A program made the translations under genes and the position numbers. The notes below the pieces were generated by a model. It saw nothing but the letters and a program-made list of their open reading frames with translations, had not been told where the DNA came from and searched no databases. From the NCBI RefSeq assembly GCF_002018875.1, contig NZ_MVOL01000001.1, forward strand, positions 372,001 through 436,000: a stretch of 64,000 bases of DNA, written 5' to 3'. The DNA is from Pseudomonas sp. MF4836. Its GTDB lineage: Bacteria > Pseudomonadota > Gammaproteobacteria > Pseudomonadales > Pseudomonadaceae. Of the stretch, positions 3,328 to 5,739 are shown in pieces (within the stretch, counting starts at the first letter, position 1; the number at the start of each line of letters is the position of its first letter).

Positions 3328-4407
3328 TCAGGCGGACGCCGGCAGCGTCCGCAATTGTTGCGCGGCGTTGCGCAGCAAGTCTTCGGTGGCGTCCCAGCCC
3401 AGGCAGCCGTCGGTCACCGATACGCCGTAGCGCATCGAGGGGCTCAGGGGCTGGCAGCCTTCGAACAGGTGGCTCTCCAGCATCACCCCGACCAGCGAGC
3501 GGTCGCCATGCAGGCGCTGTTGCAGCACATCATTGAACACTGCCGGTTGGCGCAGCGGGTCTTTGCCGCTGTTGGCGTGGCTGCAATCGACCATGATCCG
3601 CGCCGGGATCTTCAACTTCTGCAGCTCGTGCTGCACCTGGGTCACATGCGCGCGGTCGTAGTTCGGCCCGCGGTGGCCGCCGCGCAGCACCAGGTGGGTG
3701 TCCGGGTTGCCTGGGGTCTGGATGATGGCCGGGTGGCCCTGGCTGTCGACACCGAAATGGCGATGGGGGTGCGCCGCTGATCGCATGGCGTCGCAGGCGA
3801 TGCCGACCCCGCCGTCGGTGCCATTCTTGAAGCCCACCGGCATTGCCAGGCCGCTGGCCATCTCGCGGTGGATCTGCGATTCGGTGGTGCGTGCGCCAAT
3901 CGCCACCCAGCTCAGCAGATCATCGAAGTAGCCGGCAGCCATCGGTTGCAACAGTTCGGTGGCAATCGGCAGGCCCAGCTCGAGCATCTGCCGCATCAGC
4001 TCGCGGGACAGGGTCAGGCCGCCGGCCATGTCGTCGCTGCCGTTCAAGTGCGGGTCGTAGGCCAGGCCTTTCCAGCCGACCGTGGTTCGGGGTTTTTCGA
4101 CGTAGGCACGCATCACCAGCAGCAGGTCGTCGCTGACTTCGGCTGCCAGGCGGGCCAGATGGGTGGCGTATTCAATAGCGGACTGTGGGTCATGGATCGA
4201 GCAGGGCCCGACGACTACCAGCAAACGGGAGTCTTCACCGTTGAGAATGTTGCGCACCGCTTGGCGATGGGTGGCGACTTGCTGTTGCAAGGCAGCGCTG
4301 AGGGGCAGTTGCTGCTTGAGGGCAAGCGAGCTGGGCAGGCGCTGGGTCAGGGCTTCGTTGGCAGAAGACAGGGTGGACAGCGGCAGGGCAGAGACGGACG
4401 AGTTCAT
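3328..4407 (-). CDS. 3-deoxy-7-phosphoheptulonate (DAHP) synthase, class I (AroG type)
   Basis: Cytoplasmic enzyme condensing phosphoenolpyruvate and erythrose 4-phosphate, the first step of aromatic amino-acid synthesis. The 359-residue product has the AroF/G/H signatures VVGPCSIHD (PEP and metal site), RAYVEKPRTTVGWKGL, GARTTESQ, GFKNGTDG, LRGG and the metal-binding DCSHANS. The ATG at 4407 is chosen over an upstream in-frame start because AGGAAG lies 8 bases before it and the longer version would overlap a leader peptide. Expression is probably controlled by transcription attenuation through the leader described at 4652-4873. The allosteric class (Phe, Tyr or Trp sensitive) cannot be assigned from sequence alone. 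Confidence 0.93.
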   Translation of the reverse strand: MNSSVSALPLSTLSSANEALTQRLPSSLALKQQLPLSAALQQQVATHRQAVRNILNGEDSRLLVVVGPCSIHDPQSAIEYATHLARLAAEVSDDLLLVMRAYVEKPRTTVGWKGLAYDPHLNGSDDMAGGLTLSRELMRQMLELGLPIATELLQPMAAGYFDDLLSWVAIGARTTESQIHREMASGLAMPVGFKNGTDGGVGIACDAMRSAAHPHRHFGVDSQGHPAIIQTPGNPDTHLVLRGGHRGPNYDRAHVTQVQHELQKLKIPARIMVDCSHANSGKDPLRQPAVFNDVLQQRLHGDRSLVGVMLESHLFEGCQPLSPSMRYGVSVTDGCLGWDATEDLLRNAAQQLRTLPASA

Positions 4408-4454
4408 GTTCAAGGCTTCCTGGGCAGGCGGCGGGACGGTTCCCGCGCGCGGCC

Positions 4455-4604
4455 CTACTGGGGTGTTCGACAATTGGCCGGATTGGCGATTGATGTTGGG
4501 TTGCCACCAGTCGGTGACCGATCGGAGGCGGCAGGCTGTCCCGAACGGAGGTTGCTAAATCGCCAGGCGAAGGATGGGTAACGGTAATAAGTGGCGTAGT
4601 TCAT
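4455..4604 (-). CDS. Aromatic-rich leader peptide 2 upstream of DAHP synthase
   Basis: A 49-codon reading frame not listed among long ORFs. Its N-terminus reads MNYATYYRYPSFAWRF: four Tyr, two Phe and one Trp within 16 residues. A GAGGA ribosome site sits 8-9 bases before the ATG. It lies between the leader terminator and the DAHP synthase and ends 47 bases before that gene. A GC hairpin without a T-run (4431-4446) sits between its stop and the structural gene, so it may act on translation or as a second sensing step. Aromatic density and placement support a regulatory leader; function is inferred. Confidence 0.6.
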   Translation of the reverse strand: MNYATYYRYPSFAWRFSNLRSGQPAASDRSPTGGNPTSIANPANCRTPQ

Positions 4605-4651
4605 GGGTCAATCCTCAGTAAGTTCGGTGTGTTGCTAAAAATGTGCAGCCC

Positions 4652-4690
4652 TAAAAAAACAAAACCCCCGGTCGGGAAGCCGACCGGGGG
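4652..4690 (-). terminator. Attenuator terminator upstream of DAHP synthase
   Basis: A perfect 11-bp stem (CCCCCGGTCGG / CCGACCGGGGG, loop GAAG) followed on the minus strand by TTTTGTTTTTTT. It lies between leader peptide 1 and the structural gene, and no upstream gene reads into it on this strand, so it is positioned as a regulated leader terminator rather than an end-of-gene terminator. Confidence 0.85.
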
Positions 4691-4738
4691 TGAGAAGTTC
4701 TCTGGTGGGCGACCCGTGAAGTGGGCGCCGTTTGGGTA

Positions 4739-4873
4739 TCAGGCGCGCCAGTGGCTAAACCAATACCCAAAATAAAAGCTTGCCGGAGCGCAGACGTTGT
4801 TCACCCGGGCAGCCGCCACCGAGCGCGAGGCGCTGGCAGTGTGACGATGCGTGGAAGGGATGAGGGGCAACAT
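4739..4873 (-). CDS. Aromatic-rich leader peptide 1 (attenuator control peptide)
   Basis: A 44-residue frame starting ATG with GGAGAAACAGC before it. The C-terminal end reads SFYFGYWFSHWRA: three Phe, two Tyr and two Trp in 13 residues just before the stop. Such clustering is the hallmark of attenuator leader peptides, where ribosome stalling at scarce charged tRNA selects an antiterminator. TTGGGTATTG overlapping the aromatic codons can pair with GATACCCAAA just after the stop, a plausible pause hairpin, and the strong terminator follows about 50 bases downstream. Seen directly: peptide, pairing and terminator. Inferred: control of the DAHP synthase by aromatic amino-acid supply. Confidence 0.75.
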   Translation of the reverse strand: MLPLIPSTHRHTASASRSVAAARVNNVCAPASFYFGYWFSHWRA

Positions 4874-4897
4874 GCTGTTTCTCCGTGAAGTGGGGCG

Positions 4898-4927
4898 AGC
4901 TTACTTGAGGCGGGGGTTGCGATTCAA
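4898..4927 (-). promoter_or_regulatory. Candidate sigma70 promoter for the leader-DAHP synthase transcript
   Basis: On the minus strand, TTGAAT is followed after 18 bases by TAAGCT, placing the transcript start roughly 15-20 bases before leader peptide 1. The match to consensus is moderate. Confidence 0.35.
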
Positions 4928-5032
4928 TCACTAATTTCTATGGCGATTGAGGCCGGGATCTATGGATTAAGCCACCGGAAGTTTTATGACACACTCGCCG
5001 CTCGCGAGCGTTGCCGCCCTTCAGGATCATTC

Positions 5033-5299
5033 ATGCCGACACTGACCATTGCTGCTGCCCAATCGATTTCCGTGGTAGGCGACCTGCCTGGCAATATCGC
5101 TCGGCACCTCGACTTTATGGCCGCGGCCGCCGAGCAGGGCGTGAAATTGCTGGTGTTCCCCGAGTTGTCATTGACGGGTTATGAGCCTGAGCGGGCGGCC
5201 GATCTTGCCGCAGCACGCGGTGTCGGCGAACAGTTGGTGATCGCCCGGCGCACGGACCAGGTCTGGAGCGGGCGTATCGTGGGCGTCGTGTGCTCTTGA
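5033..5299 (+). pseudogene. Internally deleted carbon-nitrogen hydrolase (nitrilase superfamily) relic
   Basis: The N-terminus is a typical nitrilase-superfamily start: LTIAAAQSISVVGDLPGNIARH, then LLVFPELSLTGYEP carrying the catalytic Glu. After about residue 62 the frame passes directly into VGEQLVIARRTDQVWSGRIV, which looks like the extreme C-terminal strand of the same family. Full-length members run about 260-300 residues and have Lys and Cys catalytic residues in the missing middle; this frame has 88. The simplest reading is an in-frame deletion of about 180-200 codons that removed the Lys and Cys. The ATG at 5033 is chosen because homology starts there. Confidence 0.72.
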
Positions 5300-5739
5300 G
5301 CGGATTCGAACTGCGCCCGGCCAGCGCGGCGGACCTGGCGTTCGCCCGCGACCTCACCCGCGAAACAATGCTTGGCTATCACATTCGCCACGACCTGCTG
5401 TGGCTGGATCAGGCGTTCGACGTCGCCTGGGTCGGACGGGAGAATTGGCTGATCTGCCGTGGTGCCGAGCGCTTGGGTTTTGTCAGCCTGAGCCGTGATC
5501 TCAAGGCGCTCTATATTCGCGAACTGCACGTGCAGGCCAGTCGCCGAGGGCAGGGCGCCGGCGCCTGGACAATCGAACAGATGCTGGCGAAGGCACGCCA
5601 TGAACGGCGCGGCCTGTTGCGCTTGACCGTGTTCAAGGACAACCCGGCCCAGGGGCTCTATCGGCGGATGGGGCTTGAGGTGGTGGGCGAAGACGAGTGT
5701 TTTCTACGGATGGAGCGGCACTGTGTCGCACCTGGGTAG
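5290..5739 (+). CDS. GNAT-family N-acetyltransferase
   Basis: A single GNAT domain of about 147-149 residues, transferring an acetyl group from acetyl-CoA to an unknown amine. The acetyl-CoA binding motif is visible as VQASRRGQGAGAWTIEQML (the R/Q-x-x-G-x-G/A loop), after the strand LKALYIRELHV, and the C-terminal half has the family motif DNPAQGLYRRMGLEVVGED. It starts GTG at 5290 (or TTG at 5296), overlapping the end of the nitrilase relic, so the two were probably an operon before the deletion. The substrate is unknown. Confidence 0.82.
   Translation: MLLSGFELRPASAADLAFARDLTRETMLGYHIRHDLLWLDQAFDVAWVGRENWLICRGAERLGFVSLSRDLKALYIRELHVQASRRGQGAGAWTIEQMLAKARHERRGLLRLTVFKDNPAQGLYRRMGLEVVGEDECFLRMERHCVAPG

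Follow-up and report, generated by a model that had tools for sequence, protein, structure and literature searches.

Two serial leader peptides, an attenuator and a pseudoknot ahead of a Pseudomonas DAHP synthase gene: a probable two-stage riboregulator

We analysed the leader of a class I DAHP synthase gene in a 64,000-nucleotide stretch of Pseudomonas sp. MF4836 DNA (assembly GCF_002018875.1, contig NZ_MVOL01000001.1, positions 372,001 to 436,000; hereafter the window). The leader carries two small open reading frames (ORFs) rich in aromatic codons, encoding leader peptide 1 (LP1) and leader peptide 2 (LP2), which lie in series on either side of an intrinsic terminator; this arrangement, pointed out by a first-pass annotation made from the letters of the window, is present there and is conserved together with its aromatic codons. 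The terminator is part of a transcription attenuator that belongs to Rfam family RF00627 ('P15'), and LP2 contains an H-type pseudoknot downstream of an invariant codon motif. Comparison of the loci shows conservation of both ORFs and the terminator, of the pseudoknot, and of the way in which the LP2 stop is placed relative to the start of the gene. In our reading, which we hold to be probable rather than certain, the leader regulates, at the RNA level and in two stages, the enzyme that opens aromatic synthesis: the LP1 attenuator is followed by LP2 acting as a pausing upstream ORF (uORF) that would gate the coupled gene. All leader and gene features of this analysis lie on the minus strand and are listed by window position in Table 1.

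The second leader ORF and its invariant motif

Within the genus we compared the loci matched by the P15 model, of which 130 of 136 were fetched, the others being the window itself and those of genomes G142, G132, G141, G025 and G075; counts out of 131 include the window. The LP2 ORF, with its Trp-Arg-Phe (WRF) codons, its ATG and its Shine-Dalgarno (SD) sequence, is intact in 131/131 loci, in agreement with the first-pass claim of a second aromatic-dense peptide between the terminator and the gene. Loss of the leader peptides in relatives, which that annotation had named as the outcome that would speak against it, was not found: both peptides are kept in every one of the 131 loci. From its ATG up to WRF, aromatic residues make up 31.4% of LP2 in its own frame, versus 1.1% and 2.5% when the alternative frames are read (58 non-redundant loci), and TAT accounts for 55 of its 198 Tyr codons versus 31 of 290 in genes (p 1.8e-6). 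The spacing between TGG and CGAAC varies, with ten lengths among the loci, all of them multiples of three (130/130; L045 lacks CGAAC). The untranslated stretches on the two sides of LP2, in contrast, vary across the three frame classes, as 52/48/31 from the LP2 stop to the gene and 58/40/33 from P15 to the ATG. By these sequence comparisons, LP2 is a real gene under selection at the codon level.

In a wider sample of the family, LP2 with WRF was called by script in 37 of 40 loci (six of the 40 lie in the genus), and two of the three others, L151 and L167, carry altered forms; among named loci the script called LP2 in 74/80, one call (L236) being a wrong pick, as is the start given for L241. 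An LP2 model (R1) gave one strong match in the window's genome, the window's own; a scan of 145 genomes from the order gave six matches, confined to families f1 and f43. A weak second match in the window's genome lies at G000:C2:515646-515727 on the minus strand (L213, E 0.098). The LP2 part of the leader reached the cut-off of no Rfam family in the window or in five Halomonadaceae loci.

The TGG-CGA-TTT codons are invariant in 117/117 long-form loci. Together with one further base they form the motif TGGCGATTTA, whose ten columns are invariant in 67/67 rows and in 64/64 rows with Halomonadaceae, rows that were picked by the motif or its model. Both CGA and TTT are rare in genes, each making up 3.4% of its own codon family. 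As exceptions, the Trp codon is lost in L151 and L203 with CGATTTA retained, L156 has lost the motif, L167 has CGATAC, and L260 has CGC for CGA. We tried pairing of TGGCGATTTA or CGAACAC with other parts of the leader and rejected it, as no partner was common among the loci listed; GGGTCGCC of P15, the strongest candidate, was dropped as a partner, since it is GGGACGCC or GGGCCGCC in many loci. For the conserved CGAACA close to the LP2 end we found neither a pairing partner nor a reason. The CGA codon found there, the second in LP2, is almost invariant; it stands within TGT CGA ACA in Pseudomonas and often within ACA CGA TGT in Halomonadaceae.

Individual loci depart from this layout. In L156, LP1 (GYWYRHRRA for GYWFSHRRA) and LP2 (which lacks CGA-TTT) have changed jointly, upstream of the same gene. 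In L059 the LP2 frame is lost beyond the pseudoknot and the ORF (83 amino acids) continues into the gene, with WRF and the pseudoknot letters retained. L126 has about 138 nucleotides (nt) extra between terminator and LP2 in comparison with its near relative L125 (192 versus 54 nt), and its LP2 is intact.

A pseudoknot within LP2

The pseudoknot was noticed by comparing Pseudomonas with Halomonadaceae. It starts exactly 6 nt after TGGCGATTTANC and has a first stem (S1) of 7 base pairs, a loop of 8 nt, a second stem (S2) of 6 base pairs, and loops of 1 and 10 nt. The start of S1 lies 9 nt beyond the UUU codon, a position close to the ribosome's mRNA entry while UUU is read. In the genus, where we counted it if the GGTGGC arm was in place or at least 5 pairs formed in each helix, the pseudoknot is found in 118/131 loci; S2 forms 6/6 pairs in all 118 and S1 forms 5–7 of 7.

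For the Halomonadaceae we used a search model built from 65 sequences and containing the motif, the sequence and S1, with S2 held as sequence and not as pairs. It matched in 56/101 genomes of family f36, in 14/24 genera; we infer that f36 is Halomonadaceae, because its leader peptides are identical to those of named Chromohalobacter loci. Reading of 25 of these loci found a DAHP synthase gene downstream, an LP1-like ORF upstream and the pseudoknot within LP2 in 25/25, S1 being complete (7/7) in 25/25 and S2 (6/6) in 24/25, with S1 mostly CGGTCGG/CCGACCG or CCGGCCG. Four of the 25 recur in the training set: L311 as locus L205 itself, and L296, L306 and L309 through LP2s identical to those of training loci. 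A pseudoknot model (R2) run over 293 genomes of the order gave 12 matches, all in families f1 and f36.

To quantify the pairing we used two alignments, A4 (65 sequences) and A5 (64 sequences, with more Halomonadaceae), whose rows outside the genus loci were picked with the motif or with a model built on it. In A4, 91.4% of cells paired in the pseudoknot versus 22–56% when the arms were slid; in A5, 95.1% paired versus 23–52%. A5 contains 32 of A4's 51 Pseudomonas rows and is without L205 (the same locus as L311), L290, L292 and L293, and also without L296, L299 and L309 of the 25 new Halomonadaceae loci; L290 and L292 have longer loops, so that their exclusion helps the A5 percentage, and A4 includes both. 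From a further alignment, A2, 4 of 71 candidate rows (L068, L117, L130 and L164) were left out. In both A4 and A5, four pairs were changed on both sides versus 1.4 and 1.1 in shuffles (0/500 in each); the count of cells changed on both sides exceeded the shuffles too. In single loci both arms are changed with pairing kept, as in L310 (CGGTCAG/CTGACCG) and L278 (GCCATC/GATGGC), and L276 has Watson-Crick pairs in CGTTCG/CGAACG and GCCGCC/GGCGGC. Eight divergent loci were also tested one at a time; in seven of them only 0 to 9 of 2000 shuffles equalled the real sequence.

Several results weigh against the pseudoknot or against the two-stage reading as a whole. The pseudoknot is missing in 13/131 genus loci, and in most Pseudomonas, the window included, S1 contains one internal mismatch, the third pair being formed in 5/118. 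In the eighth divergent locus, of Cobetia (L292), 49/2000 shuffles did as well. R2 found no match in five genomes from two other genera of the family, and a plain, pseudoknot-free fold of 4650-4380 was no better than shuffles (z 0.29). When the arms are slid by +3, they do as well as the pseudoknot or better on 4/4 covariation measures with 65 sequences and on 2/4 with 64 sequences (4 and 4 pairs, 20 versus 8 cells); only 56% (A4) and 52% (A5) of cells pair in this slide, and codon structure may be the cause of its covariation. Because the +3 slide matches or beats the pseudoknot, the covariation counts alone are weak, and the case for the pseudoknot rests on the percentage of cells paired and on the single loci with both arms changed. 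An exact pseudoknot pattern was found in none of 143 genomes of the class, which says little, as the window itself does not match that pattern.

We also considered a frameshift that would fuse LP2 to the gene and rejected it: the frame is not conserved (52/48/31) and inspection recognised no slippery heptamer at CGA-TTT.

The P15 attenuator and its link to DAHP synthase

The P15 model scores 123 bits at 4781-4665 against a cut-off of 70, and the attenuator part of the leader folds 5.3 standard deviations below shuffles. LP1, an ORF of 44 codons that ends in the Phe/Tyr/Trp cluster described by the first-pass annotation, is present with YW(F/Y)S in 131/131 loci. Its codons are TAT in 134 cases versus TAC in 8, and TTT in 133 versus TTC in 9, in 58 loci whose genes have TAT 31 versus TAC 259 and TTT 8 versus TTC 225. 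This bias towards slow Tyr and Phe codons is as expected of control codons on the sequence evidence, and RNA pairing constrains some of them as well. The pause-type pairing that the same annotation placed after the cluster is a hairpin in which 96.0% of cells pair (71 sequences). Its terminator with a T-run is likewise present, with a stem of 12 pairs instead of the 11 base pairs claimed; in the terminator helix 99.2% of cells pair and 3 pairs are changed on both sides (71 sequences), and a script pattern recognised an intrinsic terminator in 123/131 loci.

We computed the competing folds on which such an attenuator would turn. In the terminating helices 97.9% of cells pair versus 36–59% when slid (71 sequences). 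In the putative antiterminator, the helix between the pause-loop arm and the 5' arm of the second hairpin pairs in 93.2% of cells, and that between the 3' arm of the second hairpin and the 5' arm of the terminator in 88.4%. On the opposite side, a third small helix pairs in only 46.5%, and the antiterminator helices have no covariation beyond shuffles; for these two reasons we count the antiterminator as inferred. The best reading of LP1, with its translation judged from sequence, is a classical aromatic attenuator, and LP1 itself is a further case of the well-known leader-peptide type.

Matches to P15 were found in 136/149 genomes of the genus (135 above the cut-off), in 87/119 genomes and 14/19 genera of the family sample, and in 15/194 genomes of the order sample, 7 of the 15 outside the family. 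A DAHP synthase gene lies downstream in 130/130 fetched genus loci. In each of 23 genomes that lack a P15 match, the highest-ranking DAHP synthase is no more than a paralogue of 50–56% identity, which suggests that the leader and its gene are gained or lost together. PA1750 is presumably the P. aeruginosa orthologue of the gene; no P. aeruginosa locus was identified by name in our set. The main text of a 3'-end map of P. aeruginosa names neither PA1750, P15 nor DAHP (PMC8297930), and that of a survey of premature terminators names neither aroF, aroG nor DAHP (PMC2965389).

Although Rfam types RF00627 as a small RNA (sRNA) gene, the members examined here are DAHP synthase leaders with an aromatic leader peptide. 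That P15 acts in trans, with the downstream gene incidental, is very improbable: its typing in Rfam and its place among the P. aeruginosa sRNAs listed, in the text consulted, as detected by others (PMC2375449) are outweighed by the DAHP synthase gene that follows in 130/130 loci, by the aromatic leader peptide in 131/131, and by a 2008 paper that, in its available text, had doubted a trans-acting role and suggested a riboswitch (PMC2527527). The RNA detected as the P15 sRNA in P. aeruginosa would be the terminated leader, which may have a trans role in addition.

Table 1. Features of the DAHP synthase leader in the window
Feature	Position	Strand	Basis
Class I DAHP synthase gene (aroFGH type)	3328..4407, ATG 4407-4405	-	NCBIfam NF009395 and TIGR00034, both above cut-offs
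LP1 SD, GGAG	4881..4884	-	Sequence, coordinates checked
LP1, 44 amino acids, C-terminal SFYFGYWFSHWRA	4739..4873, TGA stop 4741-4739	-	ORF
Transcription attenuator, Rfam RF00627 'P15'	4665..4781	-	Covariance model, 123 bits, E 1.4e-26
Pause-type hairpin, GGGTAT (4768-4763) with ATACCC (4739-4734), over LP1 aromatic codons and stop	4734..4768	-	Fold
Second hairpin, GGCGCCC/GGGTCGCC, arms able to join the antiterminator instead	4708..4729	-	97.2% of cells paired
Intrinsic terminator, 12 pairs (10 G-C), then T-run	4664..4691	-	Sequence and fold
LP2 SD, GAGGA	4612..4616	-	SD-like motif ahead of LP2 in 131/131 loci
LP2, 49 amino acids, N-terminal MNYATYYRYPSFAWRF	4455..4604, TAG stop 4457-4455	-	ORF with WRF
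Invariant motif TGGCGATTTA, W-R-F codons and one base	4556..4565	-	Alignments
H-type pseudoknot, S1 4547-4541/4525-4519, S2 4532-4527/4508-4503	4503..4547	-	Comparative pairing
Conserved CGAACA (codons R-T), close to LP2 end	4464..4469	-	Alignments
Bridge hairpin H2, from LP2 stop to the gene's SD	4422..4455	-	Folds of 75 and of 130 loci
DAHP synthase SD, AGGAAG, immediately 3' of H2	4416..4421	-	Sequence

Beside the leader, the plus strand of the window holds a short ORF at 4940-5299 with only the start of a nitrilase/NAD-synthase-like domain, which looks like a truncated gene; an acetyltransferase-like ORF (5290-5739) follows directly after it.

Stop/start geometry, proposed coupling mechanism and known systems

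The end of LP2 stands in a constant relation to the start of the gene. Among the 25 Halomonadaceae loci, which were selected by the pseudoknot, the LP2 stop either overlaps the ATG or lies no more than 7 nt from it in 17 (two values, 5 in L295 and 7 in L313, were read by eye); Onishia taeanensis, for example, has an ATGA overlap and Halomonas campaniensis a distance of 4 nt. In the genus, the gap is spanned in 129/130 loci (L059 left out) by a bridge hairpin (H2) whose 5' end lies no more than 4 nt from the LP2 stop and whose 3' end lies no more than 3 nt from the gene's SD, a result obtained by folding only the stretch from stop to SD, which favours such an outcome. The last base of the LP2 stop codon is the first paired base of H2 in 114 loci, and the arms differ with pairing retained in loci such as L119, L142 and L154. 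We take the stop/start overlap and the H2 hairpin to be, as far as the sequences indicate, two solutions to one need, that of joining stop and start.

From these features we would draw the pausing, coupling and stalling of the following scheme. In the first stage, when Phe-, Tyr- or Trp-tRNA is short, a ribosome would stall on FYFGYWF..W of LP1; the stall would keep the hairpins round the LP1 stop from taking the terminating order, the upstream segment would take the terminator arm, and RNA polymerase would read through. When aromatic tRNAs are plentiful, transcription would terminate, with the 'P15 sRNA' as the product. In the second stage, which would concern the read-through mRNA only, LP2 would be translated, and with W-R-F in the ribosome and the pseudoknot near the mRNA entry the ribosome would pause on the aromatic cluster (Tyr-Trp-Arg-Phe). 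As the end of LP2 adjoins the gene's ribosome-binding site, translation of DAHP synthase would need completion of LP2, followed by termination-reinitiation. Ribosomes that finish LP2 probably pass on to the gene, after a wait that the pseudoknot probably imposes.

The LP2 pause might be shifted by charged tRNA, by a pseudoknot ligand, or by a free aromatic amino acid that acts on the growing peptide. With charged tRNA as the signal, starvation would open the first gate and shut the second; with either of the other two signals, both gates would shut on excess, which is the sign expected of feedback. A 'pseudoknot gate' of Pseudomonadaceae and Halomonadaceae, in which the ribosome is held at Trp-CGA-UUU and aromatic supply sets the melting of the pseudoknot and the translation of the gene, is in our estimate quite possible, though short of probable. 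If it is true, one mRNA measures the same pathway twice, by two mechanisms.

The two-stage reading has to be set against further observations that speak against it. LP2 is absent in L200 and L204 and in four Salinicola loci (L280, L281 and L285, which were read, and L284, by script only). In the remaining 8/25 Halomonadaceae loci the LP2 stop lies 25–39 nt from the ATG. The H2 stretches have a mean z of only -1.7 against mononucleotide shuffles, with 32/75 below -2 (L122 was skipped). When stalls were simulated in 58 loci, the predicted accessibility of the gene's SD was 0.37 in the free leader versus 0.35–0.36 with a ribosome on Tyr, Trp or Phe. If LP2 completion is required, moreover, a starvation stall on LP2 would lower expression, a sign opposite to that of LP1.

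As an observation in its own right, the six loci without LP2 (L200, L204, L280, L281, L284 and L285) retain LP1 and the terminator and are natural one-stage versions of the leader.

The simulated stalls also bear on how a second stage could work. With the ribosome at the LP2 stop the SD was slightly less accessible (0.32 versus 0.37, p 0.004), and at none of the four stall positions simulated in the 58 loci did the predicted accessibility of the SD or of the start codon rise significantly. Because simulated stalls do not expose the gene's SD, a simple unmasking switch is unsupported and one of the erm type unlikely. The two-step control suggested by the first-pass annotation, first of transcription and then of translation, has fared unevenly: the two leader ORFs are conserved, the pseudoknot and the coupling geometry make a translational step likely, and unmasking of the start upon a stall did not hold up.

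Among the alternatives, the one that survives best, unlikely in our judgement but a serious contender, is that LP2 is a ligand-dependent arrest peptide or its pseudoknot an aptamer, so that a high level of an aromatic compound or metabolite would stop the ribosome and leave the gene untranslated. Such negative feedback would have the right sign if LP2 completion is needed, and it accords with ten invariant bases followed at fixed spacing by a conserved pseudoknot, and with the failure of five Halomonadaceae loci to reach any Rfam cut-off. No ligand is known, however, the motif survives without the pseudoknot in 13 genus loci, and the distance from Trp to the LP2 end varies widely, unlike that in stop-codon arrest; a TnaC-like arrest at the LP2 stop was set aside because of this variation.

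We also hold it rather unlikely that only LP1 regulates and that LP2 is a constitutive coupling ORF that senses nothing, shields the leader from Rho and supplies ribosomes to the gene. The very constant coupling geometry, the unchanged SD accessibility predicted upon stalls and the loss of pseudoknot and LP2 in some lineages are all in its favour; yet an ORF of this kind would need neither a Tyr-rich start (31% aromatic) with slow Tyr codons nor an invariant TGG-CGA-TTT and a pseudoknot at fixed spacing in two families. An attenuator of the erm kind, in which a stall at Tyr codons would refold the mRNA and free the gene's start, is improbable: leader ORF, hairpins and gene fit its architecture, but SD and start are not significantly freed at four stall positions in 58 loci, and in the window, as in almost every genus locus, H2 stops short of the SD.

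The two-stage reading, if true, would give a cis function to the Rfam 'sRNA' P15, which the 2008 paper, as far as its consulted text goes, had guessed to be a riboswitch (PMC2527527), and would show how entry into aromatic synthesis is controlled in Pseudomonas and Halomonadaceae. The loci would also provide a natural comparative system for a pseudoknot that interacts, at the ribosome's entry, with control codons. Our literature search, outside which subscription journals mostly lie, turned up no paper that describes LP2 or treats P15 as a DAHP attenuator. There are known cases of tandem leader ORFs and of coupled uORFs, but LP1 together with LP2, its pseudoknot and its coupling appears to be an arrangement so far undescribed.

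The closest relatives of the first stage are the attenuators of the E. coli trpL/pheL type. LP1 shares with them a short ORF rich in the end-product amino acids, a hairpin over the control codons, a terminator with a T-run, and a regulated gene that makes that amino acid. Unlike them, the present leader has a second leader ORF past the terminator and an extra hairpin between the pause hairpin and the terminator, and its LP1 combines Phe, Tyr and Trp. The attenuator in the window belongs to RF00627, read here as a cis attenuator instead of an independent sRNA; the Rfam model covers neither LP2 nor the pseudoknot.

For the second stage, one comparison is with the pseudoknots that act on ribosomes at frameshift sites: here too an H-type pseudoknot starts close to where the mRNA enters the ribosome, 9 nt downstream of a codon; in contrast to those sites, no slippery sequence is recognised and the frame of the gene relative to LP2 is not conserved. 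Two serial leader peptides before one gene are also found in Salmonella mgtM/mgtP, where control is by Mg, ATP and proline. A precedent for the ATGA coupling is uPPE2-PPE2 of M. tuberculosis, for which the available text reports termination-reinitiation at an overlapping uORF (PMC11260477); that pair lies below a B12 riboswitch, whereas ours lies below a leader-peptide attenuator and has a pseudoknot in the ORF. In ermBL/ermBL2, two leader peptides likewise precede one gene in series, there, according to the text consulted, under antibiotic control (PMC8274638). What sets the DAHP synthase leader apart from both ermBL/ermBL2 and mgtM/mgtP is that it serves amino acid biosynthesis and that its second ORF lies past the terminator and over a pseudoknot.

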